64,000 nt of DNA from Hyphomicrobiales bacterium (GCA_002401855.1 NVUH01000015.1:1-64000), one strand, 5' to 3'. Shown: positions 31,666-55,153, numbered from the stretch's first letter. A program made the numbers and translations. The notes: generated by a model from the sequence alone, not told the origin.

Positions 31666-32693
31666 GTAAAGTTACCTTAGTTTCGCCTAAAGAAAAAAAT
31701 AATTTTCGCAGTACTTTAAGCCTTGGCATTTTATTTGCTTTTGGGCTTTGCATAATTATGTTTGTTCTACATATTTCCATCGGAGCAAAACCATTAAGTT
31801 ATTTAACAGTCATTAATTCTATTATTCATTTTGATATCCGTAATTTTGATCACGTCATTATACTAAAAGTAAGGCTACCAAGAGCAATCATTGCATTAAC
31901 TGTAGGCGCAAGTTTAAGTGTTGCAGGTGCCATCATGCAAGGCGTCACTCGTAACCCACTTGCCTCTCCAAGCATTCTGGGTTTGCTAACAGGTGCATCA
32001 TTTGCAATCGTAATTTCCTATGGCATGTTTGGGGTTTTCACCCCCTATTACACACCATGGATTGCAGCTTTAGGCGCGCTTCTCACTGCAATATTGGTAC
32101 TCACTGTCGCTTCATTGGCTCCAGGTGGGGCAAGCCCGCTAAATCTAACACTGTCGGGGGCCGCCATTAGCGCTTTTTTAGGTGCAATCATTACAATTTT
32201 CAATCTATTGGATAGTGATAATTTCGATGATTTGCGAGAATGGCTCACAGGTTCACTTGCTGGCAATAGTCTAGAAGTATTTTATATTATAGTTCCTTGG
32301 ATCATCATCGCTATGGTAGCCGCCATTATTTTGTCTCGAAAAATTACAATTTTAGGCATGGGTGATGACGTTGCCAAAGGGTTGGGCGTAAAAACAACAG
32401 GCCTAAAAATACAATTATTAATCATTGTTGTCATGCTTACCGCAAGCTCAGTAGCCCTCGCAGGTCCCATGGGTTTTATCGGCTTAGTCATACCTCATAT
32501 TGCACGCATCGTCGTTGGTTCTGACTACCGCTGGATAATCCCATATTCAGCCCTATTCGGCGCAGCATACCTTGTTGGGGTCGATATTTTAGCTCGGGTT
32601 ATCATCGCCCCTCAAGAAATTTCAACCGGCATAATCACCGCTTTATTTGGCGGTCCTCTATTTATTTATTTAATTAAAACGAGGGCTAGATGA
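31662..32693 (+). CDS. FecCD-type permease 1
   Basis: A 343-residue permease of the BtuC/FecCD family with about ten transmembrane helices. Family motifs are LPRAIIALTVGASLSVAGAI, MQGVTRNPLASPSILG and GFIGLVIPHIARIVVGSDYR, followed by GGPLFIYLIKTRAR at the end. The start at 31662 overlaps the ATPase stop (ATGA). Its stop in turn overlaps the second permease by 4 bp, so all three are translationally coupled. It forms the heterodimeric channel for an iron chelate. Confidence 0.95.
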   Translation: MSKVTLVSPKEKNNFRSTLSLGILFAFGLCIIMFVLHISIGAKPLSYLTVINSIIHFDIRNFDHVIILKVRLPRAIIALTVGASLSVAGAIMQGVTRNPLASPSILGLLTGASFAIVISYGMFGVFTPYYTPWIAALGALLTAILVLTVASLAPGGASPLNLTLSGAAISAFLGAIITIFNLLDSDNFDDLREWLTGSLAGNSLEVFYIIVPWIIIAMVAAIILSRKITILGMGDDVAKGLGVKTTGLKIQLLIIVVMLTASSVALAGPMGFIGLVIPHIARIVVGSDYRWIIPYSALFGAAYLVGVDILARVIIAPQEISTGIITALFGGPLFIYLIKTRAR

Positions 32694-33748
32694 TGTCAAA
32701 CACGCATTTCACTCTACGATTATTGAATGAAAGCATAGCCCTTAAGCTACCCAAATTCGCCCTAATAATTATCCTAATCATATGTATCATGATTGTTTTT
32801 ATGATCGTTTGGAGTTTAAATATTGGCAGTTTCAACCTGTCTTTCCAAAGTGTTTACGACACTTTGAAAGGCACAGAAACAGATAAAGCTGCAAATAATG
32901 TCGTGTGGCTATTTAGGTTCCCCCGTACATTAGCCGCCATATTGGTTGGAATAATGATGGCACTATCTGGCGCTGCTCTGCAAAACGTCACTCGTAACGG
33001 CTTGGCAGACCCTTCATTAATTGGCATTAGCCAAGGTGCGGCACTCGCAGTTGTCGCAAGCATAATTGTATTTCCTGAAATAGATATCAATTTAAGGCCA
33101 TGGCTGGCTTTGGCAGGCTCTCTTATTGTTGCTGCTACAATCCAATGGTTGAGTTTTGATGATAAAGCCAGCAACTCGCTGAAACTTATTTTATTCGGCA
33201 TAGGCGTATCGGCGTTTTTAAGTTCAATCACCACCGCTATGCTAACTTATGGTGATATTTACAACGCATCATCTGCATTGGCTTGGTTGGCTGGCAGCAT
33301 AAACGCAACCAACTGGTTCGACGTTAAGCTACTCTCAATTGCCGTGCTTATATTGGTGCCACTCTTACTTATTTTAAGTCGGTTGATGGCAACCTTGCGC
33401 TTAGGCGAGATATCTGCCATCTCACTTGGTGTTCCCATAAAATTTGTTAAATATGCACTCATAAGCTTAGCTGTTGCCTTAGCTGCAATCGCCACGTCTG
33501 TTGTCGGGCCTCTTGGCTTTGTGGGCTTAGTTGCGCCTCACCTTGCCAGACTTTTAACACGTAGCAATGTTGCAATTCATTTAATTTTAACCGCATTAAT
33601 AGGCGGCCTGTTGGTCTTAGTTGCAGACTTTGCAGGCAGAGCTTTGTTTGCTCCACTACAAATACCAGCAGGTATTGTCACTGAAATTATTGGCGTGCCT
33701 TTTCTTATATTTTTGCTTTTAAGCCAAAGGCGTAAATTAAATAAATGA
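32690..33748 (+). CDS. FecCD-type permease 2
   Basis: A 352-residue partner permease. It shows FRFPRTLAAILVGIMMALSG, NVTRNGLADPSLIGISQGAA and VGPLGFVGLVAPHLARLLT, followed by IGVPFLIFLLLSQRR. Two consecutive ATG codons occur at 32690 and 32693; the first overlaps the stop of permease 1. After its stop, 36 bp lead to the first binding-protein gene, so transporter and receptors are one transcript. Confidence 0.95.
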   Translation: MMSNTHFTLRLLNESIALKLPKFALIIILIICIMIVFMIVWSLNIGSFNLSFQSVYDTLKGTETDKAANNVVWLFRFPRTLAAILVGIMMALSGAALQNVTRNGLADPSLIGISQGAALAVVASIIVFPEIDINLRPWLALAGSLIVAATIQWLSFDDKASNSLKLILFGIGVSAFLSSITTAMLTYGDIYNASSALAWLAGSINATNWFDVKLLSIAVLILVPLLLILSRLMATLRLGEISAISLGVPIKFVKYALISLAVALAAIATSVVGPLGFVGLVAPHLARLLTRSNVAIHLILTALIGGLLVLVADFAGRALFAPLQIPAGIVTEIIGVPFLIFLLLSQRRKLNK

Positions 33749-33784
33749 CAAAATACTTTACAACTCAAACAAAATGGAAATGAG

Positions 33785-34756
33785 ATGAAAACTTCATTAA
33801 TAAAAACAGCAATTGCGGTCGCGCTCACAATTATAGTTTCTTCAGCACACGCTGTCGAAACACGTATATATTCAGATGATTTAGACAGAAAAGTCGAAAT
33901 CCCCGTTCAAGCACAACGGATTGTTGCACTACACGATGTTTTGCTAACCGTTCCTTTGATAGAGCTAGGTGTAATGCCAGTGGGTTCTATCGGGCGTTTG
34001 TCAAAAGATGGCAAACCATTCATAAGAAGTGGCATGGTGTTAACTGGCTATGATTTTGAAAATAGCGGTATTGACTTCATTGGTACTTTTGATTTGGATA
34101 TTGAAAAAGTAGCTGCTCTTAAACCAGACTTAATCATTGCAACACCTAGATACGAAAAAACTTTAGCACAATTTGAAGCGCTCGCCCCTACAGTTGTTGT
34201 CAACTATAACACCCGCACGCCATTAGAAATATTTGAAGCGGTTGCCGACATCACAAACACTCAAGATAAATTGGCTGTATTAGAAAGACGCTACCAAAGC
34301 CAATTAGATGGCATTAGACGCATTATTGATACAAAAAGCATAGTCGTCAATGCGATGATGCCTAAAAAGGGTAACATAAACATTCGCTATTCAGACTTCA
34401 CACTAGGTAAAGTATTACGTGATGCGGGCTTTAGGTTTCCAAAAGCTGTAGATGATCTAAAACCAGGTGGACGTGCAGACTTTAGCGTTGAAAGACTGGC
34501 TGAATTAGATGCTGATTATGTATTTGCAACCTATAGAACAGATAAAAAACACACTCCACAAATGATAGTTGAAGAGTTTGAAGCCGTTCTTCCTAATTTC
34601 TGCGATCACCTAACAGCCTGCAAAAACAACAATCTAATCGTCATTCCTCGTGAATTGAGCTTAAGCGTTTCATACACAGCATTGGGCATCACAGCCTACA
34701 CCGTGTTGACTCATATAAGTGGCAACCCATTTGCAGCTAAGCTTGAGAAGAAATAA
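33785..34756 (+). CDS. Iron-chelate binding protein paralog 1
   Basis: A 323-residue periplasmic binding protein of the FepB/FhuD class III type. The signal peptide ends near SSAHAVE (residue 23). The mature part starts YSDDLDRKVEIPVQAQRIVA, with LPxG-free ligand-cleft motifs IELGVMPVGSIGR, LKPDLIIATPRYEK and ATYRTDKKHTPQ. A cysteine pair in NFCDHLTACKNN may form a disulfide. It is the first of four tandem paralogs. It differs most in the C-terminal region, where PRELSLSVSYTALG replaces the PREEASSNSF of others. Confidence 0.9.
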   Translation: MKTSLIKTAIAVALTIIVSSAHAVETRIYSDDLDRKVEIPVQAQRIVALHDVLLTVPLIELGVMPVGSIGRLSKDGKPFIRSGMVLTGYDFENSGIDFIGTFDLDIEKVAALKPDLIIATPRYEKTLAQFEALAPTVVVNYNTRTPLEIFEAVADITNTQDKLAVLERRYQSQLDGIRRIIDTKSIVVNAMMPKKGNINIRYSDFTLGKVLRDAGFRFPKAVDDLKPGGRADFSVERLAELDADYVFATYRTDKKHTPQMIVEEFEAVLPNFCDHLTACKNNNLIVIPRELSLSVSYTALGITAYTVLTHISGNPFAAKLEKK

Positions 34757-34763
34757 AACTTAA

Positions 34764-35669
34764 ATGTCCAATCTCCCCACACCATTTAGAAGTTTTACAG
34801 ATGATTTAGGTCGCGTTGTGCAAATTCCAACCACACCAAGACGCATCGCGTCACTGCACGATACTGTACTTACATTATCTCTCATCGAGTTAGGCGTATT
34901 TCCCGTTGGCAGTCACGGCAGGATATCAAAGGAAGGGGTACCGTTCATCAGAGCAAGTAAGGTATTAAACGGTTATGATTTTGACAATTGCGACATAAAA
35001 TTTTTAGGCCGTAGCCCAATCGACATTGATAAACTTATCTCTGTAAAGCCTGACCTTATTATTTCAACACTTTGGCAAAAACTACCCATTGAGCAGCTAG
35101 AAGCCATTGCTCCCACATTAATTTTAGATTTTGAAAAACACACGAGAGGAAAATTAGCAGAGATTATAGCTGATGCAACAAATACACAAAGCAGCCTAAC
35201 CATTTTGAAACGTAGGTTTGAAGCACAAATAGAACGTATTAAAGAAATTATAGATACGCAACAAATTAGTGTGAACATCATTCAACCACATAACGGAAAA
35301 ATATTAGTTTTTAATTCATATTTTTCCATGGGTGAGGTTTTGCGTGATGCTGGTTTTAAATTTCCTGATGCAGTGAATGATATTCCATTGGGTGATTGCA
35401 AACTATTTGAGCCAGATGAACTTGATCAAATAGAAGCTGATTTTGTATTTGCAACTTATAGAACTGATAAAAAACACACACCGCAATATTTGATGGATGA
35501 GTTTATTGCGATCAAAAGTGATTTTGTCGAAAGTTTTGCACCCTGTCGACAAGGCCGGCTATTATTCATCCCTAGAGAAGAAGCCAGCGGCAACTCATTT
35601 GCTGCTTTGGGAATTTGCGCCGCAACAATCTTAAACCACGTAGCGGGGCACCCTTACCCGATTATATGA
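34764..35669 (+). CDS. Iron-chelate binding protein paralog 2, no signal peptide
   Basis: A 301-residue paralog of the flanking binding proteins. It begins MSNLPTPFRSFTDDLGRVVQ, so the mature domain starts almost at residue 8 and there is no signal peptide, lipobox or upstream frame that could supply one; only 7 bp separate it from paralog 1. The conserved first cysteine of the CxxxxxxC pair is lost (DFVESFAPCRQG). Other motifs are kept: IELGVFPVGSHGR, VKPDLIISTLWQK, ATYRTDKKHTPQ and PREEASGNSFAALG. It probably stays in the cytoplasm. It could be a sensor, a chelate store or a delivery protein for the reductase, or a decaying copy. Confidence 0.88.
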   Translation: MSNLPTPFRSFTDDLGRVVQIPTTPRRIASLHDTVLTLSLIELGVFPVGSHGRISKEGVPFIRASKVLNGYDFDNCDIKFLGRSPIDIDKLISVKPDLIISTLWQKLPIEQLEAIAPTLILDFEKHTRGKLAEIIADATNTQSSLTILKRRFEAQIERIKEIIDTQQISVNIIQPHNGKILVFNSYFSMGEVLRDAGFKFPDAVNDIPLGDCKLFEPDELDQIEADFVFATYRTDKKHTPQYLMDEFIAIKSDFVESFAPCRQGRLLFIPREEASGNSFAALGICAATILNHVAGHPYPII

Positions 35670-35727
35670 AATTCCGAAAATCCCCCACATAACCAAAGGC
35701 CCCACATAACCAAGAAAGAGAAGAGAA
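35670..35727 (+). repeat. 14-bp tandem direct repeat between paralogs 2 and 3
   Basis: CCCCACATAACCAA occurs at 35683-35696 and again at 35700-35713, just before the GAGAAGAG ribosome site of paralog 3. It may be a relic of the duplication or of replication slippage. No function is assigned. Confidence 0.5.
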
Positions 35728-36690
35728 ATGAACATCTCAATACTAAAAGCTACCTTTGCCGCATGCGCAATCGTAGCAACTATGTTTGCACCCGCACAGG
35801 CTGCAGATACAATATCATTTACCGATGACCTAGGCAGAAAGGTAGAAATACCAACAAAGCCAACTGCCATTGTTTCAATGCACGATTCTGTGTTGACCAT
35901 TCCTTTAATAGAACTGGGTGTAATACCTGCTGGCAGCCATGGCCGCGAAACAAAACAAGGCGTGCCCTTCATTAGAAGTGGCAAAGGCTTAACTGGTTAT
36001 GACTTTGACAATAGCAGCATTAAATTTGTTGGTAATTACCCTGCTGATGTTGAAAAAGTCGCAGCTGTAAAACCCGATTTAATCATCACAACACCTTGGC
36101 AAAAAGCGCCTATTGACCAATTACAGGCCATAGCACCTACCATTGTGATTGATTATAATAAACATTCTGATCAAGAAATTTTTGAATTGCTTGCAAAAAT
36201 TACTGGCACAACAGAACGATTTAATGTTTTGCTTGGTAGATATGAGCAACAGATAAAACGCATCAAACGCATTATTGACACTGAAAACATTACGGTGAAT
36301 GTAATACAACCCAATAAAGGTCAAATCTTAGTTTGGAACACATATGGTAATATTGGCAAAGTATTACGCGACGCGGGCTTTACGTTTCCACAAATCACAA
36401 ATGACATCCCAATGGATGATATTGGCCGATTCAGTGCCGAAAAACTACAGGACTTAGATGCTGATTATGTTTTTGCAACCTATAGAACCGATCAACTACA
36501 ATCACCAAAAGACACCGTAGAAGGCTTTGAGCAGGTTGTACCTGGCTTCTGCGAGTATCTAACTGCTTGTAAAGAAGGCCGTATGCTCGTCATCCCACGT
36601 GAAGAAGCTTCTAGCAACTCATTCTTAGCATTGAGTATTTCTGCATACACTGTGCTCACTCACATTAGTGGTCACCCATACAATAAATAA
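35728..36690 (+). CDS. Iron-chelate binding protein paralog 3
   Basis: A 320-residue periplasmic binding protein. The signal peptide is ILKATFAACAIVATMFAPAQ ending at AQAAD. It keeps ELGVIPAGSHGRETKQGVPF, GKGLTGYDFDNSSIKFVG, VKPDLIITTPWQKAPIDQ and ATYRTDQLQSPKD, plus the cysteine pair GFCEYLTACKEG. A good GAGAAGAG ribosome site precedes it. It is closest in pattern to paralogs 2 and 4. It likely docks on the FecCD permease pair encoded upstream; its ligand specificity relative to the others cannot be told from sequence. Confidence 0.9.
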   Translation: MNISILKATFAACAIVATMFAPAQAADTISFTDDLGRKVEIPTKPTAIVSMHDSVLTIPLIELGVIPAGSHGRETKQGVPFIRSGKGLTGYDFDNSSIKFVGNYPADVEKVAAVKPDLIITTPWQKAPIDQLQAIAPTIVIDYNKHSDQEIFELLAKITGTTERFNVLLGRYEQQIKRIKRIIDTENITVNVIQPNKGQILVWNTYGNIGKVLRDAGFTFPQITNDIPMDDIGRFSAEKLQDLDADYVFATYRTDQLQSPKDTVEGFEQVVPGFCEYLTACKEGRMLVIPREEASSNSFLALSISAYTVLTHISGHPYNK

Positions 36691-36746
36691 TATTAAAACC
36701 CCCACATTATTTACCCTCACAAAACCTAAATAAAAAGAGAAAAGTA

Positions 36747-37712
36747 ATGAATAAAATAATATTAAAAACAATTGCTGCAATTGGTTTTGCAGCAATAACA
36801 TCATTTAGCTTTGCGCAAGCAAGCGACATGCGTCAAATTAAGGACGACGTAGGCAGAGATCTTCAAGTTCCAGTTTCACCGACTGCCATAGTTGCGTTAC
36901 ATGATTCAATGTTAACCCTTCCACTAATAGAGTTAGGTGTTTTGCCTGTGGGCTCTGATGGCCGAACAGACAAAGCAACAGGAAGAAACTTCATACGCGC
37001 TGGGAAAAGCTTAACAGGTATTGATTTTGACAATAGCAGCATTAAATATGTATCGTCAGATTTAGAAAAAATCGCTGCGGTAAAGCCAGATCTCATTATC
37101 ATTTCTACAGGCGATCAAGACATTCTGGACAAACTTCAAGCAATTGCTCCTACATTTGTAATTGACTATGACAAACGCACTCGTATTCAAATATTTGAAA
37201 TATTAGCAGAATTATCTAACACTGTAGCAAAGCTAGACACACTAAAAACTCGTTACAATCAGCAAATCCAAGACATTAAAAATGTTATTGACACCCAAAA
37301 CATCACTGTCAATGTTATGCAGCCATCAAAAGGTAAAATACTCGTTTGGAACTCATATTTTAGCCTAGGTAAAGTGTTGCGTGATGCAGGCTTTAAGTTT
37401 CCTAAAATTGTAAATGAAATCAAACCTGGTGAACGCGCTCAATTTAGCGCCGAAAAACTGCAAGAACTTGACGCCGATTACATTTTTGTAACTTATCGTA
37501 CCGATCGCAACCACACACCACAGAATACTGTTGCCGATTTTGAAGATGTTATTCCAAATTTCTGTAACTACCTCAAGGCTTGTCGTGAAAACCAAATGCT
37601 AGTTATGCCGCGTGAAGCCGCATCTAGCAACTCGTTTACCGCGCTTGGTCTATCAGCATTTACGGTGCTCACACATATCAGTGGTAACCCATACAAAAAG
37701 CTTGGTAAATAA
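36747..37712 (+). CDS. Iron-chelate binding protein paralog 4
   Basis: A 321-residue periplasmic binding protein with a signal peptide ending SFAQASD (about residue 25). It contains ELGVLPVGSDGRTDKATGR, GKSLTGIDFDNSSIKYVS, AVKPDLIIISTGDQD and VTYRTDRNHTPQN, and the cysteine pair NFCNYLKACREN. Compared with paralog 3 it has a two-residue insertion after GRTDKATG and lacks a few residues before the DLEKIAAVKPD segment, changing loops near the cleft. It is the last binding protein and runs straight into the reductase gene. Confidence 0.9.
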   Translation: MNKIILKTIAAIGFAAITSFSFAQASDMRQIKDDVGRDLQVPVSPTAIVALHDSMLTLPLIELGVLPVGSDGRTDKATGRNFIRAGKSLTGIDFDNSSIKYVSSDLEKIAAVKPDLIIISTGDQDILDKLQAIAPTFVIDYDKRTRIQIFEILAELSNTVAKLDTLKTRYNQQIQDIKNVIDTQNITVNVMQPSKGKILVWNSYFSLGKVLRDAGFKFPKIVNEIKPGERAQFSAEKLQELDADYIFVTYRTDRNHTPQNTVADFEDVIPNFCNYLKACRENQMLVMPREAASSNSFTALGLSAFTVLTHISGNPYKKLGK

Positions 37713-44730: not shown

Positions 44731-45540
44731 TCAACCGCTATAACCAGTCATATAACTGGGTTCAGCGTGTGTGTGTTTCGGTAAAATCATTAAAAATGGA
44801 TGGTTAAGTTCAGGATAATCATGCCGTTTAAAACCAATCTGAAAAACCTCTTCTAACAGGCTTTCACTTAGCACTTCATCAGGCGTGCCGATGGCACGTA
44901 ATTTGGCTTGGTGCATAATGGCAATTTTATCCGCATAGGCAGCCGCAAGGTTTAAATCGTGCAACACCACAATAACGCTTGCACCGCCATTAGCCAGAGC
45001 CTTAGCCAAACGCAAAATACCGTGTTGGTGGCGCGGGTCAACATGTGAGATTGGTTCGTCTAAAAAAACCAATGGCGCCCGCTGGGCAAGAACTCGGGCT
45101 AAATTCACTCTGGCTTTCTCACCCCCAGAAAGTGTTAAATAATTTCTTTGGCTAAAACCCAGCATTTCAGTATCCGCCAAAGCAGATTTAACAATTTCTA
45201 GATCCGCAAGGCTTTCACCTTTTTTATCTAAATGTGGATTGCGACCAAATAGCACCACTTGTGATGCGTTAAACGGGAAATTCAGGTCTGAAGATTGCGG
45301 CATTACCGAGCGGGTTTGAGCTAACTGTTTGATAGAATAATCTGTTAACGCCTTACCAAATAATTTGACCCGCCCCTCGCTTGCTTCTAAATCACCACTT
45401 AATAATTTAATCAAGCAAGTCTTACCAGCGCCATTGGGGCCAATGATAGCCAACAATTCACCATGAGCAACCTTTAGGCTAACATTGTCGATTAATTTTT
45501 TATTATTTAAAATCAAACTTATATTTTGAGCTTCAAGCAT
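44731..45540 (-). CDS. hmuV: HmuV-like heme ABC transporter ATPase
   Basis: A 269-residue ATPase. Walker A is IGPNGAGKTCLIKLLSG, the characteristic HmuV region is RSVMPQSSDLNFPFNASQVV with LFGRNPH, the signature is LSGGEKARVNLARVL, Walker B is LVFLDEPISHVDPRHQH and the H-loop is VVLHDLNLAAAYAD. The overall pattern matches hemin importers of alphaproteobacteria. It overlaps the permease stop by one base. It energises transfer of heme from HmuT through HmuU. Confidence 0.9.
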   Translation of the reverse strand: MLEAQNISLILNNKKLIDNVSLKVAHGELLAIIGPNGAGKTCLIKLLSGDLEASEGRVKLFGKALTDYSIKQLAQTRSVMPQSSDLNFPFNASQVVLFGRNPHLDKKGESLADLEIVKSALADTEMLGFSQRNYLTLSGGEKARVNLARVLAQRAPLVFLDEPISHVDPRHQHGILRLAKALANGGASVIVVLHDLNLAAAYADKIAIMHQAKLRAIGTPDEVLSESLLEEVFQIGFKRHDYPELNHPFLMILPKHTHAEPSYMTGYSG

Positions 45541-46589
45541 TAAGCAACTCCACCATGATCACGCCGTGTGCGCTCAATTAAATATAAAAAGAATGGCGCC
45601 CCAACCAGTGCTGTAACCAACCCCAGAGGCAATTGCGCAGGCGACACAACCGTGCGGGCAAATAAATCTGCCAACACCAATAAAATCGCTCCGCCCATTG
45701 CCGATGCAGGTAACAACAATCTATGATCAGGCCCCAAAATAAGCCGGAACAAATGCGGTGCGACCAAACCAACAAATCCAATAACACCCGCCACAGAAAC
45801 AGCCGCCCCCGTTGCGATCGAAGCCAAAGCCAAACATTGCAGCCGCGCTCTTTCCGTATCAACCCCCAGATGCCGCGCTTCAGCATCACCAAGCGCCAAC
45901 AAATTAAGCGTTCGCGCATATCGCAACATAAAAATAAAACTCAAAATTATAAACGGCGCGATCACCCAGATAAACTTCCAAATAGAAGCGCTTAACGAAC
46001 CCATCATCCAAAATACAATAGACCGAAGCTCCGCATCATCCGAAACAAATGATAAAAAGCTCACCACCGCCCCCATCAGCGCATTCACCGCGATACCAAC
46101 CAATAATAATGTGGTAACTTCAGCTTGGCCGCCTCGCCGCGCAAAGCGATATACAAGCATTGCAGTGCCCAAACCACCAACAAATGCCATAGCAGGAAGC
46201 GTCCAGATACCCAGTGCAGTAAAGCCCAATACAATGGCAATGGTTGCCCCCGCCGCTGCCCCACCAGAAACACCAATAAGCCCAGGACTGGCTAACGGGT
46301 TACGAAAAACTCCTTGAATGACTGTGCCAGAAACACCTAGTGCGCCACCAATTAAAACGCCCATCACCACACGTGGTAAACGAATGGCTATCAAAACAGC
46401 ATGTTCTCTCGAAGTGAATTCAATGGGTAAAGCTATACCCAGCTTACTCAACAATATAGCTATGGTTTTATCAAGTGGAATAAAAAATGCACCAATTCCC
46501 ACACTGATTAAGCATATCAAAACCAACATAACGGCAATAACGCTTAATGCAATATTGCCACTAATGTTCTTAGATTTATTTGGGTTCAT
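45540..46589 (-). CDS. hmuU: HmuU-like heme permease (FecCD family)
   Basis: A FecCD permease of 349 residues if started at the ATG at 46587-46589. Motifs are IRLPRVVMGVLIGGALGVSG, VIQGVFRNPLASPGLIGVSG and VIGFVGLVAPHLFRLILGPD, and it ends IERTRRDHGG. Longer starts exist: an ATG overlapping the hmuT stop would add about 20 residues. The chosen start lies inside a strong hairpin (46585-46619), so its access may be regulated. Co-operon with hmuT and hmuV. Confidence 0.88.
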   Translation of the reverse strand: MNPNKSKNISGNIALSVIAVMLVLICLISVGIGAFFIPLDKTIAILLSKLGIALPIEFTSREHAVLIAIRLPRVVMGVLIGGALGVSGTVIQGVFRNPLASPGLIGVSGGAAAGATIAIVLGFTALGIWTLPAMAFVGGLGTAMLVYRFARRGGQAEVTTLLLVGIAVNALMGAVVSFLSFVSDDAELRSIVFWMMGSLSASIWKFIWVIAPFIILSFIFMLRYARTLNLLALGDAEARHLGVDTERARLQCLALASIATGAAVSVAGVIGFVGLVAPHLFRLILGPDHRLLLPASAMGGAILLVLADLFARTVVSPAQLPLGLVTALVGAPFFLYLIERTRRDHGGVA

Positions 46590-46619
46590 TCTATCGCCCA
46601 AAAACGGCGATAGAATGAA
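46585..46619 (-). promoter_or_regulatory. 14-bp hairpin covering the hmuU start codon
   Basis: Arms 46585-46598 and 46606-46619 are exactly complementary around a seven-base loop. On the minus strand the 3' arm includes the ATG of hmuU. It lies 23 nt past the hmuT stop, so it can act as an intercistronic hairpin that lowers hmuU translation or protects hmuT mRNA. Confidence 0.6.
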
Positions 46620-46641
46620 GCTTTTTGAGCGTATGATAAAA

Positions 46642-47670
46642 TCACTTATCATCTGCATAAAGTTTTTCAGCAAATGCTTTGGCGGCTGAAGGCAATCTCC
46701 AACTTGCACGATGAGTTTCTAAAGATGCCCATGTTAGAAATTTCTTATTTTCACCTGCAGGAGTTTCACTAACACCAGGAATTGCAAGTATATATTGAAC
46801 AGGGTCTTCATTACGATCCCAGAGTTTTTGCGGAATGACAATATAATCAGGCTTCATTGGAATGATCGCTTCAGGATCGATTTCTTTTTCACCGCTAATT
46901 TTTGCTTCTGCCCCCACATTAATGGCACCAGCCAACCGAATGACCAAATCTTCGGTTTTCATTAAACCAGTGGTACGCGTACTGCCCTCGCTATAGGGCA
47001 ACATACTCATCACGCGGTAATGTTTACCACTATCGGCAGCCAGTTTTGCAGCTGCGGCTGCATCTAAACGCATGCCTTCAATTAGCTCATGGCCTTTTTC
47101 AGGCACTTCAAGCGCTGCGGCAATTAATTCAACAAATTCTTCTAATACCCGCATGGTATATTTACCCTGCTCTTTAGCACGAGCCAATTCTGGTACAATA
47201 AGCACATCTACATCAGCGGCTTTAAGTTGTTCAAAAATACCCAAATTGCCTTCTTTTTTGGCTGCCCAATCAGGCATAATAACCAAATCTGGATTCAAGC
47301 TCAACACACCCTCAACATTGAGTGAGCTATAAGAACCAACATCAGGTAATTTTTCAATTACTCCTTCAGGCCAGATTGCATTTTTTGTACGACCAACAAC
47401 AAGATCACCCAAACCAAGGCCAAAAATAGCGTCAGAAACAGAAGGCACCAATGCAACAATACGCTTGGCGCTATTAATTGTAGTTTCATTGCCAAAACTA
47501 TCCGTAACATTAAGCGGGTAGCCGCCTGCTGCTTGAACACTTGAAATGATAAAAACACTTGTAGCCAAACCAAGTGCCGCACTGCGCATCAAATTACAAC
47601 TAAGCTTTTTCACATTAAAAAGAGCGTTCAATAATATACTTTTCTTTAATTCCATCTGTTTTTGTTCCAT
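46642..47670 (-). CDS. hmuT: HmuT-like heme-binding periplasmic protein
   Basis: A 342-residue class III binding protein. The early N terminus is long; the likely signal peptide core is RSAALGLATSVFIISSVQAA (residues about 29-48). The mature part contains AKRIVALVPSVSDAIFGLG, VGSYSSLNVEGVLSLNPDLV and MPYS-type segments (MLPYSEGSTRTTGLM), consistent with hemin-binding HmuT. It delivers heme to HmuUV. An ATG is reachable at 47670 or later (residue 6 or 28); the exact start is open. The upstream region is AT-rich. Confidence 0.85.
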   Translation of the reverse strand: MEQKQMELKKSILLNALFNVKKLSCNLMRSAALGLATSVFIISSVQAAGGYPLNVTDSFGNETTINSAKRIVALVPSVSDAIFGLGLGDLVVGRTKNAIWPEGVIEKLPDVGSYSSLNVEGVLSLNPDLVIMPDWAAKKEGNLGIFEQLKAADVDVLIVPELARAKEQGKYTMRVLEEFVELIAAALEVPEKGHELIEGMRLDAAAAAKLAADSGKHYRVMSMLPYSEGSTRTTGLMKTEDLVIRLAGAINVGAEAKISGEKEIDPEAIIPMKPDYIVIPQKLWDRNEDPVQYILAIPGVSETPAGENKKFLTWASLETHRASWRLPSAAKAFAEKLYADDK

Positions 47671-47983: not shown

Positions 47984-48766
47984 TCATAAAGATAGCTGCC
48001 CTATGAAAACAAACCTTAGCCACCACATATCTGATGCCAATAGAACTTGTTTCGATAAGCCCATCAACTTTGTATATTTTTTCACCGTCATTGATGCTAC
48101 CGAGCCAAGAACAAACAAAAATGCAAAGTCACCCAGAGCAGGGTTTTCAATGGCCTGCAGTGAAGCCAATGGATCAACCGCAGAAATTTCAACTTTATCA
48201 TCACCATAATCTTGAATAATAACGTTACATGGCAGTATGGTTCCAATATGCGGTTCAGCGCAAAGAGCTTTATAAGCATAGTCTGGTTTACATGCACCCA
48301 AGATGGTATAAGGTCTAAAATCAACATCCAATTTATTCCTAAACGTCACCTTAATGTCTATTGTGGTGAGAACACCAAATCCATTTTCTGCAAGAACATG
48401 CTTTACACGCTCAATAGTTTGATCAAATACTTTTTCGGCGCCAAGGCTTTTGGTAAAATCAACAATACGAATCCCTTCTAAACTAGGGGGGCGTTGGAAC
48501 GCCATACCAACGCCTAATCTCGCCCTTTCATCAATTGCCATTTGCTCAATTGGTTGACCATTAATGCTTATCTCACCTTTAATAATCTTGAAGGGAGGAG
48601 TGCCCATAATTGATGACTATAGGCTAGATTTTCCAGAACCGTTTGGGCCAAACAAAATATGTAATTCACCATCATTAATGGTTAAGTCGATATTATGAAG
48701 CACTGGAGTTTCAGCCACACATATATCAACATTCTTAAATTTAAATGAATTTTCACCTTTCAACAT
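47984..48766 (-). pseudogene. Broken ABC ATPase fused to a DUF302 domain
   Basis: From an ATG at 48766 the frame encodes an ABC ATPase start with FKNVDICVAETPVLH and Walker A FGPNGSGKSSL, then an in-frame TAG at 48617-48619. The same frame continues SSIMGTPPFKIIKGEI and RLGVGMAFQRPPSLEGIRI (Q-loop), as in SufC-like ATPases. It then shifts directly into a DUF302 domain (FDQTIERVKHVLAENGFGVL, VDFRPYTILGACKPDYA, GTILPCNVIIQDYGD, ending ENPAL). The ATPase signature and Walker B are gone. The C-terminal 40 residues match neither family. An open frame from 48607 could still make a DUF302 protein. Confidence 0.75.
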
Positions 48767-49076
48767 GTGCATAAATTTTAGCTGCGGCAATAAGTCCTAA
48801 ACCAATAAATATTCAATATTTTTCTAAAATCTTATCTGAAATATTTTCTAAACATCACAACCACTTAATGAATATTTTAAAATTAGTCTAAAAATGGAAA
48901 TTTCTAAAATTATATAACTTATTGTAATTATTCTAATTTATAGCATTTGCAATAATATTCTTGAAGAATACTCTACATTTGAAACAGGCAGAATTATAGC
49001 CCGCTTTCGTAGAAGTAAAAAATTGCTAACTAGCTCAATATCGAGCCAAATGGCATCGGATAAAAAGGATATTTAT
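48767..49076 (+). promoter_or_regulatory. Promoter region of third FecBCD-type operon
   Basis: No gene is supported. The stretch is AT-rich with several TTCTAAA motifs (near 48825, 48846, 48902) and TGTAATTATTCTAAT near 48923, which loosely resembles the Irr box TTTAGAA-N3-TTCTAAA of alphaproteobacteria. A palindrome TATTCTTGAAGAATA is at 48956-48970. Iron-dependent control is inferred only. Confidence 0.4.
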
Positions 49077-50159
49077 ATGTCTAGAATAAGGTTTGGCAAA
49101 TCGTTAAAAACCATATTATTGACCAGTTGCATGCTTGCAATTCCCATGATCAATACAAGTTATGCCGAAACAATCACCTATACCGACCAAGCAGATCGTG
49201 TGGTAACGCTTGAAAAAATTCCTGAACGCATTGCAACCATTGCAACGCCAGCAGGTTCTATGGTGGTGGCAATCTCAGGTAATGCTGATCGATTGGTCGG
49301 TACATCGCAAAATTCTAAAAATGCACTTGTAGAAGGCGTATTAAATGAATTTTTCCCTAAATTAAATGATATTTCTTCTAATATTATTGGTAAAAATGGT
49401 GATGCCAACATTGAAGAATTACTTAATTTAGAAACTGACCTAGTTTTACAGTGGGCACGCAATACCAAAAGCATCGAAGCTATGGAAGCCGCAGGCCTAA
49501 ATGTTGCCGGCATGCTATATAAAAAAATAGAAATTGCTAAAACTTGGCTCACCGACATTGGTATAATTTTAAGAAACAGCCCCAAAGCTGAAGAAATATT
49601 GGCTTGGCATGATGCAGCATATAAACGCATCACTGATAAAACCAAAAATATTGCCGATGCGGATAAACCTAGCGTACTCTACCTGCTTAGTGAAAAACGT
49701 GCCGCTGGCCCAGCAAGCCATTTTCAATTTTTCATGGACACAGCGGGTGCTAAAAACGCCATGCCGACAAAAGCAAAATTCATAGATGTCGATGCTGAAA
49801 TGGTGCTTAAGGCCGACCCAGACATCATCTGGTTATTTGGCTTTAATATGAAAATGACACCAGATAAAATTTATGCCAATCCAATTTTTGCTGACTTAAA
49901 AGCCGTGCAAAACCACCGCGTTTACAAAGTTCCTGTTGGTGGTGATAGATGGGATCCACCAAACCAAGAATTTGCATTAGGTTGGGAATGGTTCACACGA
50001 ACAGTTCACCCAGATCTACTTGATGGATCAATTCGGCAGAGCATTAAAACCGCATTTCCAATGCTGTATGGCAAAACACCAACGGATGCACAAATTGATT
50101 CAATGCTAAGAGCCGAGATGAATAGAGATGGCTTAGATTACGCAAAAATAATCCGCTAA
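49077..50159 (+). CDS. Metal-chelate periplasmic binding protein of third operon
   Basis: A 360-residue class III binding protein. The ATG at 49077 follows AAGGA at a good distance; an upstream TTG-started frame is less likely. The signal peptide core is ILLTSCMLAIPMINTSYAE. The mature part has ERIATIATPAGSMVVAISGN, VGTSQNSK and DADKPSVLYLLSEKRAAGP, followed by ADPDIIWLFGFNMK and VGGDRWDPPNQEFALGWEWF. It is longer and clearly different from the four paralogs at 34-37 kb and from HmuT. It begins the operon with permease, ATPase, cupins and the DUF364 protein. The ligand is unknown, likely a metal chelate. Confidence 0.85.
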   Translation: MSRIRFGKSLKTILLTSCMLAIPMINTSYAETITYTDQADRVVTLEKIPERIATIATPAGSMVVAISGNADRLVGTSQNSKNALVEGVLNEFFPKLNDISSNIIGKNGDANIEELLNLETDLVLQWARNTKSIEAMEAAGLNVAGMLYKKIEIAKTWLTDIGIILRNSPKAEEILAWHDAAYKRITDKTKNIADADKPSVLYLLSEKRAAGPASHFQFFMDTAGAKNAMPTKAKFIDVDAEMVLKADPDIIWLFGFNMKMTPDKIYANPIFADLKAVQNHRVYKVPVGGDRWDPPNQEFALGWEWFTRTVHPDLLDGSIRQSIKTAFPMLYGKTPTDAQIDSMLRAEMNRDGLDYAKIIR

Positions 50160-50171
50160 TTAACACTAATC

Positions 50172-50202
50172 TCGAGAGGTTTTTAAGTTTAAAACCTCTC
50201 GA
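50172..50202 (+). terminator. 12-bp hairpin between binding-protein and permease genes
   Basis: TCGAGAGGTTTT at 50172-50183 and its exact complement at 50191-50202 enclose a seven-base loop, starting 13 nt after the binding-protein stop. The 3' side is A-rich rather than T-rich on this strand, so it is a protecting or partly attenuating hairpin rather than a full terminator. Confidence 0.7.
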
Positions 50203-50222
50203 AAAAAATAGAGATTAAATTT

Positions 50223-51320
50223 ATGTCTAGTCGCGACATCCCCTCCCCGCCGTCATTAACACAACGCCTAAACAATTTGTTAGGCTATTTTGGCCTTTCA
50301 AAAACCAATAATTTCACTTTGCAAATTATCATTATGCTCAGTATTTTGACCATAACTATAATATTTGCATTATCTACAGGGCGTTATCCAATTTCCTTCG
50401 ATCATGTCGTGCGCATTTTACTGTCAAATATATTTGACATTACCCCAGACTGGAAGATAGTCGAACAAAAGGTTGTGGAATTGGTGCGTTTACCGCGCAT
50501 TTTAGTGGCTGGGTTATGCGGTGCAGCACTTTCTATAAGCGGCGCAGCCTTACAAGGCATGTTCCGCAATCCGCTGGTTGGGCCGCAAATCATTGGCGTA
50601 TCATCTGGCTCAGCATTCGGAGGAGTGCTAGCCATTTTATTTTTATTACCTAGTTATTTTATATCCATTTTTGCATTTATTTTTGGTGTTATTGCCCTGC
50701 TGTTCACCATGGGCATTGCCCGCGCTGGCGGTGGCAAAAATATACTTTCCTTGGTATTGGGCGGCATTGTAACCTCGGCTTTTTTCGCATCATTAGTATC
50801 TCTAGCCAAATATGCCGCCGATCCAGACGATGCCTTGCCTACCATTGTTTATTGGCTGATGGGTTCATTCAATGAATCTAGTTATTCTGATGTTGTATAT
50901 ATTTTAGTGCCCATCTTAACCGCAGGTGTGTTGGTTTATAAAATGCGTCATCTGGTTAATATATTATCATTAGGTGAAGAAGAAGCGCGCTCTTTGGGGG
51001 TCAATGTCGACCGCAGCCGATGGACAATTTTGTTATCAGTGGCAGTTATGATTTCCGCCACAGTTTCAGTCAGTGGGGTCATTGGTTGGGTCGGGCTTAT
51101 CATTCCGCATTTCGCACGCATGATTACGGGGCCAAACCATTCAAGGCTTATCCCTGTATCCATGTTAGCTGGCGCAACTTATATGATTTTGGTCGATACG
51201 GTTGCGCGCACAGCAAGCTATGGCGAAATTCCAATCGGCGTATTAACCGCATTACTTGGCGCTCCCATATTTGCTTGGTTACTTTATCGCACTCAACTAA
51301 AAGGCTGGAGCAATGATTAA
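50223..51320 (+). CDS. FecCD-type permease of third operon
   Basis: A 365-residue BtuC/FecCD permease. Motifs are RLPRILVAGLCGAALSISGA, MFRNPLVGPQIIGVSSGSAF and VIGWVGLIIPHFARMITGPN, followed by GAPIFAWLLYR. The ninth-helix loop LSLGEEEARSLGVNVDRSR is the family's coupling segment. Only one permease gene is present, so it should form a homodimer. Its stop overlaps the ATPase start by 8 bp. Confidence 0.93.
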   Translation: MSSRDIPSPPSLTQRLNNLLGYFGLSKTNNFTLQIIIMLSILTITIIFALSTGRYPISFDHVVRILLSNIFDITPDWKIVEQKVVELVRLPRILVAGLCGAALSISGAALQGMFRNPLVGPQIIGVSSGSAFGGVLAILFLLPSYFISIFAFIFGVIALLFTMGIARAGGGKNILSLVLGGIVTSAFFASLVSLAKYAADPDDALPTIVYWLMGSFNESSYSDVVYILVPILTAGVLVYKMRHLVNILSLGEEEARSLGVNVDRSRWTILLSVAVMISATVSVSGVIGWVGLIIPHFARMITGPNHSRLIPVSMLAGATYMILVDTVARTASYGEIPIGVLTALLGAPIFAWLLYRTQLKGWSND

Positions 51321-52044
51321 AGTCAAAAACATTGGCTATAAATATCCTAAAGCTAAAACATCCATTTTTGAGGGCCATAACTTTGAGTTAGAAGCTGGTG
51401 AAATCCTTGCCATTTTAGGCCCAAATGGTTCGGGAAAAACCACACTGATTAAGTCTCTACTTGGTTTATTGCCAATTTTCGAAGGTGAAATTAAGATCAA
51501 TGGCGTGCGTTCTTATGTGCCACAACATACGCTAAGCCCATTCGATTATAGCGTTACAGAAATGGTAGTAATGGGTGCTAGCGGTCAGAATGGCTTATTC
51601 GCCGAACCAACCAAGGCTGACTTCAAAAAAACTGATGAAGCCCTAGAGCAAGTGGGCATGCTAGATTGGCGGGATGAGAGTTTTTCACACTTAAGCGGTG
51701 GCCAACGACAGATGATTTTAATCGCCAGAGCTTTGGTTTCTAGTCCAGATATCATGATATTAGATGAACCGACATCAGCACTTGATTATCGCAATCAAGA
51801 CAAAGTGTTACAAACTATGAAATATGTCGCCGATCAAGGCAAGGCCGTTATATTCTCTACCCATTGCCCCTTACAAGCCTTACATGTTTCACAAAAAACC
51901 TTGTTGGTCAAAAACAACACACCAAGCATTTTCGGCCTATCCAAAGATGTTTTGAGCCAAGAGAATCTAAGCAAACTTTACCAATTACCCATAGCCAGAG
52001 GCAGGCTTGAACAATCAGAAATTATTGTGCCTCTATATAGTTAA
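51313..52044 (+). CDS. FecE-type ATPase of third operon
   Basis: A 243-residue ATPase. Walker A is ILGPNGSGKTTLIKSLLG, the signature is LSGGQRQMILIARALV, Walker B is DIMILDEPTSALDY and the switch region is STHCPLQALHVS. The H-loop His is followed by Cys-Pro rather than the usual Asp-x. It overlaps the permease gene, and 43 bp lead to the first cupin. It completes the third ABC transporter. Confidence 0.93.
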   Translation: MIKVKNIGYKYPKAKTSIFEGHNFELEAGEILAILGPNGSGKTTLIKSLLGLLPIFEGEIKINGVRSYVPQHTLSPFDYSVTEMVVMGASGQNGLFAEPTKADFKKTDEALEQVGMLDWRDESFSHLSGGQRQMILIARALVSSPDIMILDEPTSALDYRNQDKVLQTMKYVADQGKAVIFSTHCPLQALHVSQKTLLVKNNTPSIFGLSKDVLSQENLSKLYQLPIARGRLEQSEIIVPLYS

Positions 52045-52087
52045 TTTCTGAACAATCATAAACTTAGCCAATAAATAGGAGATTAAA

Positions 52088-52540
52088 ATGAGTATTCTAA
52101 ATAAATTAGCATTAGCGGGAATGGCCATATTTTTAACCACAAGCACGGCATTTGCAGAGCCAAGGCCAACAAGCTTGTTAGATCTTTCTACTTTAGCCAG
52201 CAGTCCAGTGTTTAACGACCAAGGCACAGCAACGCCATTGGCCTTCACCGATGACAAAAAATCTGCTGTTGTGGTCATTCAATTGCCACCACATAGCAAA
52301 GCGGCGGGCGCACATGCCACTAGCGATGGCCGAGTTAGATATGCCTTTGTACTTGCAGGCACATTATATTTTGCCGACGGCGATGAAGTTGATGAGTCTA
52401 AAGAGAAAGCTTACCCAACAGGATCAATTCTGGTCATCACCTCTGGAACAAAACACTGGGTCGCGACCCGTGAAGAAGGGCTGACATTAATGCTAACCGC
52501 TCATGCACCAGAAAACCTTGCCGCCAACGCATTGAAATAA
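52088..52540 (+). CDS. Exported cupin-domain protein
   Basis: A 150-residue single-domain cupin. The signal peptide is MSILNKLALAGMAIFLTTST ending AFAEP. The cupin motifs are HSKAAGAHATSDGRVRYAFV (His-rich motif 1) and a second, PTGSILVITSGTKHWVATRE, with His and Glu that can hold a metal. It should be periplasmic. It is a close paralog of the next gene. A ribosome site ATAGGAG precedes it. It may bind a metal chelate or act as an isomerase/oxygenase scaffold; no enzyme class is clear. Confidence 0.8.
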   Translation: MSILNKLALAGMAIFLTTSTAFAEPRPTSLLDLSTLASSPVFNDQGTATPLAFTDDKKSAVVVIQLPPHSKAAGAHATSDGRVRYAFVLAGTLYFADGDEVDESKEKAYPTGSILVITSGTKHWVATREEGLTLMLTAHAPENLAANALK

Positions 52541-52566
52541 CCATGCCAATATTTAAGGATATAATC

Positions 52567-52998
52567 ATGACCACCGCTAAAAACCAAACTTACCAACCAA
52601 CGACAACCCTTGATATATCTGCAATGCCAAATAATTTGATATTCGAAGATCAAGGCATCGCAACCCCATTGGCAATCAATGAAAACAACCAACCCATCAT
52701 TGTGATGTTAACATTAAAAGCCGGTTCCAAAGCCAATAATGCGCATGCAACAAGCGATGGCAGAGTGCGGTTTTTAACGGTAGTAAAAGGTACATTATAT
52801 TATGCCGATGGCAATGAAGTTGATCCCGCCAAAGAAATTGCTTATCCTGCAGGCTCAACTTTACTAATTGCCTCTGGCACAAATCACTGGGTTGCTTCGC
52901 ATGATGGCGACGTAACTTTCATTCTCACCGCAGTTGAAAATGAAAATTTAGCTCCCTATGTAACTGCACAACAAAATGCGGCACAAAATAATTCATAG
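52567..52998 (+). CDS. Cytoplasmic cupin-domain paralog
   Basis: A 143-residue paralog of the preceding cupin without a signal peptide. I start it at ATG 52567, after AAGGAT; an earlier ATG at 52543 is possible. Its motif region ANNAHATSDGRVRFLTVVKG and PAGSTLLIASGTNHWVASHD align exactly with the exported copy (same His, Gly, Pro and Trp). Together they form an exported/cytoplasmic pair, mirroring binding-protein paralog 2 at 34.8 kb. Possible role: chaperoning the same small ligand on both sides of the membrane. Confidence 0.8.
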   Translation: MTTAKNQTYQPTTTLDISAMPNNLIFEDQGIATPLAINENNQPIIVMLTLKAGSKANNAHATSDGRVRFLTVVKGTLYYADGNEVDPAKEIAYPAGSTLLIASGTNHWVASHDGDVTFILTAVENENLAPYVTAQQNAAQNNS

Positions 52999-53007
52999 GT
53001 GAATGTT

Positions 53008-54015
53008 ATGAAAAACAACAAATTAAACGGCTATATATATGTGTCTGCATATAACACCGAATTAGCCCATAAATTCAACACTGAAATCGATCATCTGCGG
53101 CAATTTGGCTGGAATATTAGTGAGTTCGATACGCAAAAACCATCAGATGATGTGATTATATTATCCCATACCCAATTTAATGCCCAAAATTCAAACTCTC
53201 CTGCATTTATCATCATTTGCGAAGATGAAAATCTGGCCAAGCAATATAATGCCATTTCACCAGATGGCTTTGCCATTTTATCAGCGCTTGATGGCGGTAA
53301 GATTGAACAAGCCTTGGTCAATTCAATAGATATAGAGGTCGAAATTGATAAAATAATGGTTGGTTTTAATTGGACTATGGTCACCGCAGGCGATTATTGC
53401 GGCATTGCCCGCAGCCCCTCACGCGGTACAGAAGGTGCAAGAACGGTGCGGCCAGAGGGTGGTTTTGCAGGCAGAAGCCTGAAGTCTATCGCGCAAATGT
53501 TATATTCCACAGATGCCCTATCACGTTCTGTAGGATTGGCAGCAATAAATGCGTTTTGCAACCAGCCAGATAGTGACAAACAAGCCAAATCTAGCATGGC
53601 AAGTGGATTTAGCAGCATAGAAGCACCTGGCGAAGGAGTGGTGATTATTGGCGGTTTTAGAGGCGTTACCAAACGCCTAACCGCCGCGAAAATAGTAGAG
53701 CGGGAGCCAAGAGCAGAAGATGTACCCATAGAACAAGCCGCAGAAACCATTGCCACTGCCAAAACCCTAGCAATCACAGCACAAACTCTAATGAATGGCA
53801 GCCTAGAGCCACTATTATTGGCATCACAAAATGTTAAACGCCGCATGTTAATTGGCCCATCTACGCCCTTGTCACCTATATTATTTGACTATGGCCTTAC
53901 CGATTTAAATGGCATGGCAGTATATGACCGCGAGGCCATAGAGCGCTTTATCTGCGAAACTGGTACAATGATCATGTTAGATGGCATTATGCAAAGCAAA
54001 GGCTTAACAAAATGA
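53008..54015 (+). CDS. DUF4213/DUF364 heavy-metal-chelation-domain protein
   Basis: A 335-residue protein starting at ATG 53008 after AGGTGA. The first 110 residues are a domain I do not recognise (YIYVSAYNTELAHKF). Then a DUF4213-like domain contains VGFNWTMVTAGDYCGIARSP and GFAGRSLKSIAQML. DUF364 follows: VVIIGGFRGVTKRL, then VEREPRAEDVPIEQAAETI and LIGPSTPLSPILFDYGLTDL. The Pfam note for DUF364 is putative heavy-metal chelation, with a nicotianamine-synthase-like fold. It is encoded in the third FecBCD-type operon, suggesting it handles the imported metal or chelate. The chemistry is unproven. Confidence 0.8.
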   Translation: MKNNKLNGYIYVSAYNTELAHKFNTEIDHLRQFGWNISEFDTQKPSDDVIILSHTQFNAQNSNSPAFIIICEDENLAKQYNAISPDGFAILSALDGGKIEQALVNSIDIEVEIDKIMVGFNWTMVTAGDYCGIARSPSRGTEGARTVRPEGGFAGRSLKSIAQMLYSTDALSRSVGLAAINAFCNQPDSDKQAKSSMASGFSSIEAPGEGVVIIGGFRGVTKRLTAAKIVEREPRAEDVPIEQAAETIATAKTLAITAQTLMNGSLEPLLLASQNVKRRMLIGPSTPLSPILFDYGLTDLNGMAVYDREAIERFICETGTMIMLDGIMQSKGLTK

Positions 54016-54308
54016 CCAAACTCCCCCCCAAAGCAGTTTGTTACAAAACCACTAAATTATTTACACCCGAAAATTTACCTGATGTTTTTAAAAACAATCA
54101 TCACACCAAGGCAGGTGTTTGGGGTAAAATCACCCTAAAATCTGGTCGTTTAAGGTTGCAGCGTTTTGATGTAAATGACATCAGCAATTGCATTGCCGAA
54201 GAAATATTGAACGTCGGTGAAACCGCTGTTTTTGGACCTCAAGAGCCACATGCCGTACAATTTATAAAATCCGGCGGTTTTACCATTGGCTTTCATCATA
54301 TTGAGTAA
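54012..54308 (+). CDS. DUF1971 (TehB-like) small protein
   Basis: A 98-residue protein with the DUF1971 pattern LPPKAVCYKTTKLFTPENLP, HHTKAGVWGKITLKSGRL, and GPQEPHAVQFIKSG. The HTKAGVWG core and PQEPH (a His that could hold a metal) are family hallmarks. In other bacteria the domain is found beside or fused to tellurite-resistance TehB and in metal stress genes. It overlaps the DUF364 gene by 4 bp (ATGA), so it is co-translated. Confidence 0.78.
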   Translation: MTKLPPKAVCYKTTKLFTPENLPDVFKNNHHTKAGVWGKITLKSGRLRLQRFDVNDISNCIAEEILNVGETAVFGPQEPHAVQFIKSGGFTIGFHHIE

Positions 54309-54313
54309 AATAA

Positions 54314-55153
54314 ATGAACCAAGACATCACAATACGAAAATTCACCAATAGTGACACAGAGAGCTGTGCAATCATCTCAAATAAACTTGGCTGGCCAATG
54401 ACCGTCAATGATTGGAATTTCGCCTCGGTTCTTGGGCTAGGCACAGTGGTTGAAAAGTCTGCTGAGCTTGTTGGCGTAGGTTTCATTTGGCCGTTTAAAC
54501 CTGACCATTACACGCTTGGCTTGATGATTGTTAGTTCTGACCATCAACGGCAAGGCATTGGCAAGCTCATTATGCAGCATCTACTTGATGCGGCAGGTGA
54601 GAGCCAAATACGCCTTAACGCCACTATCAAAGGTTTACCGCTCTATCGTAAATTGGGGTTCAACGATTGTGGTTTCATCCACCAACATCAAGGATATCCG
54701 ACAAAAATTCAAATGCCTCCAAACGCTAACATCCGAACAATGACTGCAATTGACTTTGACAATATATTGATTATAGACAAAGCTGCATCTGGCTTAGATA
54801 GAAGCACAATGTTACAGCTATTAGCAAAATTCTCTTCAGGCATAGTAATTGAAAACCAACAAGGGATTTCTGGTTTTGCTTTCTGCCGAAAATCAGGATT
54901 GGGCGAAACAATTGGTCCCGTCATTGCAACTTCGCCTGAAGATGCACAAGACCTCATGCATTATTTTATCAATCAAGCAGAAGGCTTTTTACGGATTGAT
55001 TTAGAAATCGGAGCCGATTCTTATGGTGATTTTTTAACCAAGGCGGGGCTTCCCATGGTCAACGAAATTGTTGCCATGAAAAAACTTAAAATGGATAATC
55101 CAACCACGCCAAATTCCAATATCATCGCATTAGTCAGCCAAGCACTTGGCTGA
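54314..55153 (+). CDS. GNAT-family N-acetyltransferase (two-domain)
   Basis: A 279-residue acetyltransferase. The acetyl-CoA loop is SSDHQRQGIGKLIMQHLL (Q/RxxGxG/A motif) around residues 75-92, followed by LYRKLGFNDCGFIHQHQGYP. The C-terminal half is a second GNAT-like (Acetyltransf_18) domain with DLEIGADSYGDFLTKAGL. It begins 6 bp after DUF1971, and is the last gene of the third operon. It could acetylate an amine on a metallophore or a small metabolite; no substrate is known. Confidence 0.82.
   Translation: MNQDITIRKFTNSDTESCAIISNKLGWPMTVNDWNFASVLGLGTVVEKSAELVGVGFIWPFKPDHYTLGLMIVSSDHQRQGIGKLIMQHLLDAAGESQIRLNATIKGLPLYRKLGFNDCGFIHQHQGYPTKIQMPPNANIRTMTAIDFDNILIIDKAASGLDRSTMLQLLAKFSSGIVIENQQGISGFAFCRKSGLGETIGPVIATSPEDAQDLMHYFINQAEGFLRIDLEIGADSYGDFLTKAGLPMVNEIVAMKKLKMDNPTTPNSNIIALVSQALG

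Follow-up and report, generated by a model that had tools for sequence, protein, structure and literature searches.

The most probable function of an eight-gene operon in a Hyphomicrobiales bacterium (GCA_002401855.1) is, on a tentative reading, the import of molybdenum, tungsten, or a molybdenum chelate by a MolBC-like transporter with a molybdenum-associated DUF364 protein. The original prediction for this DNA singled out no metal; the present evidence leans toward molybdenum or tungsten over iron, zinc, nickel, and cobalt. From the sequence, we infer the metal, the role of the DUF364 protein, the co-transcription of the genes, and every step given to the accessory genes. The combination of genes appears to be new, as had been suspected: we found neither a description of it in the literature nor a repeat of it in the genomes and plasmids searched.

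The DUF364 family has had a structure since 2010 and has no assigned reaction. With this operon, a role of DUF364 in molybdenum supply could be tested by simple genetics, and so could the capacity of FecBCD-type importers to serve as the sole molybdenum route. Knowledge of the substrate would help to assign a group of alphaproteobacterial FecBCD systems that are now annotated only as iron transporters.

Layout of the operon

The window, i.e., the whole stretch of 64,000 nucleotides that was analysed, covers bases 1-64000 of a contig 76,135 bases long, from a genome of 3.08 Mb (94.7% complete). The eight genes named in the original prediction lie head-to-tail on the plus strand at 49077-55153, and each was confirmed by an open reading frame and a Pfam or NCBIfam match. 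The intergenic spacings, in gene order, are 63, -8, 43, 29 (or 2), 9, -4, and 5 bp. The predicted "4-8 bp overlaps or short gaps" thus hold as overlaps only at the permease/ATPase and DUF364/DUF1971 junctions, and the remaining junctions are short gaps. The next gene downstream starts at 55390, 236 bp past the operon. The operon is indeed the third of FecBCD type in the window, the other two being at 30814-37712 and 44731-47670.

The region just upstream (48728-49076, plus strand) is part of a blastn alignment with the orthologous operon of a congener (locus L120), which extends from the binding protein gene to 48728 at 73% identity, and this conserved segment is probably the promoter/operator region. 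Rfam found no riboswitch within the window. A palindrome in this region, ATTCTTGAAGAAT (48957-48969), was considered as an operator and dropped, because two other copies in the genome precede an unrelated gene or sit inside a gene and because the congener sequence differs at that site.

The gap between the binding protein and permease genes (50160-50222, plus strand) contains a predicted RNA stem-loop (stem at 50170-50204) with a folding z of -4.05; the corresponding gap of the congener (L120:2326-2403) gave -4.29. The stem sequences of the two species are unrelated, so that the structure was kept and the sequence replaced. Stem-loops are known to control subunit ratios in other binding-protein operons, and this one probably sets an excess of the binding protein over the membrane subunits. 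We rejected it as a terminator on the coding strand, because a U-run is absent from that strand; therefore, a single transcript covering all eight genes is plausible.

Transporter genes

The first three genes encode a Peripla_BP_2 periplasmic substrate-binding protein with a signal peptide (49077-50159; Pfam/NCBIfam match), a FecCD-type permease (50223-51320), and an ABC ATPase (51313-52044; Pfam match to ABC_tran). The permease was assigned to the MolB group from its Pfam match, structure matches, and a tree. Its best solved match was HI1471 (MolB; 8e-82, about 46% identity by blastp), followed by FhuB (1.9e-52), and the match to MolB stood well above those to FhuB, HmuU, and BtuC among the solved structures, MolB being one of the very few characterised permeases on hand for comparison. 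The nearest solved relative of the ATPase was HI1470 (MolC; 6.5e-51, with the next match at 2e-39). In a tree of 27 FecCD permeases, the operon permease and MolB fell into one cluster, together with permeases from Providencia, Rhizobium, Agrobacterium, Methylocystis, and Labrenzia, at a fork that was moderately, not strongly, supported (86/86). It stood apart from the other FecCD permeases of the window.

In the same tree, the permease at 45540-46709 clustered with HmuU and BhuU, both heme permeases (96/88); thus, the FecBCD operon at 44731-47670 (minus strand) probably encodes a heme importer. Beyond that operon, the genes down to 39368 encode a pair of SAM methyltransferases, an AraC regulator, and an ABC set of the NitT/TauT type. 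At 33785-37712, one FecCD permease pair and an ATPase precede a tandem array of four binding proteins that are paralogs of one another, and the array is followed by a siderophore-interacting FAD reductase. The frame at 47984-48760 (minus strand), in which part of an ABC ATPase runs into a complete DUF302 domain, has further ATPase-like sequence upstream and resembles a fused remnant left by decay.

The best solved relatives of the binding protein were 4ovk (9e-39) and 4hn9, then the Helicobacter NiuB/CeuE structures 4ls3 and 4ino, and no MolA chain appeared among its matches to solved structures up to E 10. Judged by these matches, the binding protein is not MolA-like. The similarity to nickel-binding NiuB/CeuE raises the alternative of a NiuBDE-like importer of nickel or cobalt. 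A relative of the transporter in Providencia, which adjoins an Opp/Nik-like ABC set, a TonB receptor, a cupin, and a methyltransferase, also favours this alternative. However, the match to NiuB is weak (about 1e-10 to 3e-10) and spans the general fold, and the operon contains no nickel or cobalt gene; we consider nickel or cobalt import quite improbable.

DUF364 protein

The sixth gene (53008-54015) encodes a protein with DUF4213 (57.4 bits) and DUF364 (81.8 bits) domains, both over the Pfam cut-off, and with a match to the structure 3l5o (5.6e-18). The protein has about 100 extra N-terminal residues, and a GTG start at 52999 is possible. In an alignment with Dhaf4260, the pocket positions Arg42, Asn83, Gly129, Glu148, and Thr174 were kept, and two were changed (Asp180 to Asn and Thr182 to Ser). 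The structure paper of 2010 described a context of tungstate, vanadium, molybdate, and iron transport for DUF364 and proposed a catalytic pocket (PMC2954201). The gene families and the gene order support the proposal that an ABC importer for a metal or metal chelate is joined here to a "heavy-metal" type of DUF364 protein.

DUF364 was rare, being found in 9 of 289 genomes of Alphaproteobacteria and in 11 of 398 genomes of the phylum. Among 15 sampled DUF364 loci outside the window, six had molybdenum genes within about 10 kb (Pseudomonadota), namely modB/modC with nifE, modABC, nifE (two loci), moaA-mobA, and xanthine dehydrogenase, and none had a FecCD permease beside DUF364. Scans of genome contigs with back-translated sequences found no relatives of the DUF364 protein or of the exported cupin described below. 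In Azospirillum (L003/L020 set), DUF364 lies inside a longer protein annotated as DUF2478, and another alphaproteobacterium has a DUF364 protein of similar length.

Molybdenum supply in the genome

MoaA scored 329.5 bits, which is over its cut-off, and its gene stands next to moaC, moeA, and moaE, so the genome makes molybdenum cofactor. Neither ModB (best 118.7 bits, cut-off 182.6) nor ModA (best 43.7 bits, cut-off 62.5) had a match above the cut-off in the genome. ModA was present in four of five congeners (204-207 bits), and the fifth is only 75% complete. As the present genome seems to lack ModABC, the operon may replace the usual molybdate importer; a takeover of molybdate import by the MolBC-like operon is a suggestive reading, and at 94.7% completeness modABC could instead be missing from the assembly. 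PF20256 (molybdenum hydroxylases), the sole enzyme family that was searched for, was absent from the genome, which weakens the case for molybdenum and does not remove it.

The operon may thus transport molybdate or tungstate, to judge from the comparisons above. The importer would be of type II (FecBCD/MolBC-like), would accept molybdate, tungstate, or a small chelate of either, and would probably stand in for ModABC, which seems to be absent. In the periplasm, the binding protein would capture the substrate, and the MolB-like permease and MolC-like ATPase would carry it inward. In the cytoplasm, the DUF364 protein would handle the metal, by binding it, by freeing it from a ligand, or by passing it on for cofactor synthesis. 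A lineage-specific tail would be formed by the cupins, DUF1971, and GNAT proteins, whose likeliest role would be ligand handling, for example, acetylation of the freed ligand.

A more elaborate version, to which we give only a slight chance, is that a FecBCD-type system with DUF364, paired cupins, and GNAT took the place of ModABC and supplies this lineage with molybdenum or tungsten by way of a metal chelate. DUF364 would then be a cytoplasmic enzyme of metal release or transfer, the periplasmic and cytoplasmic cupins would handle the ligand, and GNAT would inactivate or recycle it.

Relatives of the operon

One congener (95% complete) has an orthologous binding protein (77.5% identical) and permease (80% identical), together with the ATPase. 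The homology covers 48728 to 52044 of the window, except for the gap between the binding protein and permease genes, and ends exactly at the stop codon of the ATPase. In the congener, the ATPase is followed by the start of an MFS gene, close to the contig end, and by none of the five accessory genes, and no relative of the DUF364 protein was found in this congener. The same genome also has ModABC, including ModA, which indicates that the two systems can coexist.

The five accessory genes were likewise absent beside 12 more distant FecBCD relatives in plasmids and genomes. The possibility that relatives share the five-gene tail was examined at their loci and rejected, and neither the cupin pair nor the complete set of eight genes was seen elsewhere in the genomes and plasmids searched. 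A general co-occurrence of the downstream families with the transporter was therefore not borne out by the congener, the 12 FecBCD relatives, or the 15 DUF364 loci. The original prediction held that rare linkage of the downstream genes to this transporter elsewhere would speak for an accidental operon, and the linkage largely proved to be rare.

An accidental operon would consist of a self-contained transporter and unrelated appended genes that form no pathway. This is consistent with the end of the congener operon, and of the homology, at the ATPase, as well as with the five downstream families being unlinked to the transporter elsewhere. However, the genes are tightly packed on one strand, with a 4-bp overlap and a similar base composition, and DUF364 is a recognised associate of metal transport. 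We regard an accidental assembly as unlikely.

The surroundings of the transporter relatives bear on the nature of the substrate. TonB-dependent receptors adjoin the relatives in three loci, and an IucA/IucC siderophore cluster adjoins the relative in Methylocystis (one case). Some relatives carry two uncharacterised proteins, the smaller of which is FmdE-like (PF02663 at 8e-4 and 6e-3, below the cut-off). Given the TonB receptors, the siderophore cluster, and the FmdE-like genes, a chelated substrate is possible. The receptors and the siderophore cluster favour chelates over a free oxyanion, which counts against import of plain molybdate or tungstate. An alphaproteobacterial cassette (L013, L014, L016, L017, L069, L070) recurs in which MolB-group FecBCD genes come with one uncharacterised protein or with two, including an FmdE-like one. 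Some copies adjoin TonB receptors, and the cassette is apparently undescribed. In Providencia stuartii, an island on an IncC plasmid (L015:1-11988) carries a Nik/Opp-like ABC set, three unassigned proteins, a TonB receptor, a Crp/Fnr regulator, FecBCD, a cupin, and a SAM methyltransferase. Plasmids of Klebsiella, Proteus, and Morganella also carry binding proteins like that of the island.

The operon could instead import a siderophore of iron or another cation, with downstream genes that release or modify the ligand and with no involvement of molybdenum. We consider this possible, though not probable. The family of the binding protein and its paralogs are of the siderophore/heme type, and the TonB receptors and the siderophore cluster beside the relatives point the same way, as does the iron case in the published context of DUF364 (PMC2954201). 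Furthermore, Peripla_BP_2 was matched 14 times in the genome, and the window contains the siderophore-interacting reductase, which together mark a heavy user of chelates. On the other hand, the permease and ATPase are closest to MolBC and not to FhuB or FecD, DUF364 is linked to molybdenum genes in the phylum, and a TonB receptor was not identified at the window locus.

Accessory genes

Two small Cupin_2 proteins follow the ATPase. The first (52088-52540) has a signal peptide, read from the sequence as MSILNKLALAGMAIFLTTSTAFA|E, and is thus predicted to be exported; the second (52570-52998) has none and is predicted to be cytoplasmic. For the second, the start at 52570 is favoured by AAGGATATAATC ahead of the ATG, and a start at 52543 is possible. 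The two cupins are paralogs with 50% identity, and both score below the Pfam cut-off for Cupin_2 of 27.2 bits (22.2 and 19.2 bits, respectively). Their family was found in none of the 397 other genomes of the phylum and in none of the plasmids searched. An AlphaFold model of the pair was unusable (pLDDT 42.7). Only two histidines are common to both cupins, and the canonical cupin metal site has more ligands than these; metal binding by the cupins is therefore uncertain. The suggestion that cupins bind the chelate in the periplasm and again in the cytoplasm found no support here and is speculation.

The DUF1971 protein (54012-54308; TehB N-terminal/YeaR-like, with a cupin-like fold) scored 59.2 bits, over the Pfam cut-off, and matched the structures 3m70 (8e-12) and 3dl3 (1e-6). 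No TehB methyltransferase domain follows DUF1971. On sphingomonad plasmids, DUF1971 adjoins a truncated haemoglobin. The last gene (54314-55153) encodes a two-domain GNAT protein (Pfam matches to Acetyltransf_7 and Acetyltransf_18), which has many relatives at 35-39% identity in rhizobia and rhizobial plasmids. The base composition of the tail is like that of the transporter, so that no recent foreign import is visible; by this measure, the idea that the tail was acquired recently from elsewhere is unsupported.

Comparison with known systems

We know of no accessory tail in mol operons and, for NiuBDE, of no accessory genes of the kind seen in the window. NiuBDE of Helicobacter pylori is a FecBCD-type metal importer whose binding protein is weakly similar to that of the window operon. 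It was shown experimentally to import nickel and cobalt, and niuB is often unlinked (PMC5140060).

On the Providencia pPS1 island, FecBCD genes of the same permease group are followed by a small cupin, as in the window operon. However, that cupin has no detectable homology to the window cupins, and a methyltransferase stands there, not DUF364, DUF1971, and GNAT. The cassettes of rhizobia and Methylocystis, with FecBCD, an FmdE-like protein, and a 436-residue protein, share the permease group with the window operon; they have FmdE-like proteins and TonB receptors, whereas the window operon has cupins, DUF364, DUF1971, and GNAT.

Dhaf4260 (PDB 3l5o) has both domains in common with the window protein, and most of the named pocket residues are kept in the alignment, whereas the N-terminal extension of about 100 residues sets the window protein apart from the Dhaf4260 family. 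The setting also differs: the window protein adjoins a FecBCD importer, and some of the sampled relatives lie near modABC, nif, or moa genes.

MolBC-A of Haemophilus influenzae (HI1470-HI1472) is a FecBCD-type system; among solved structures, none is closer to the operon's permease and ATPase than its MolB and MolC, whereas the window binding protein is not like MolA. MolBC-A was shown experimentally to import molybdate, MolA also binds tungstate, and the system acts as a low-affinity second route beside ModABC (PMC4031551). In the genome studied here, by contrast, the MolBC-like operon stands without a ModABC above the cut-off.
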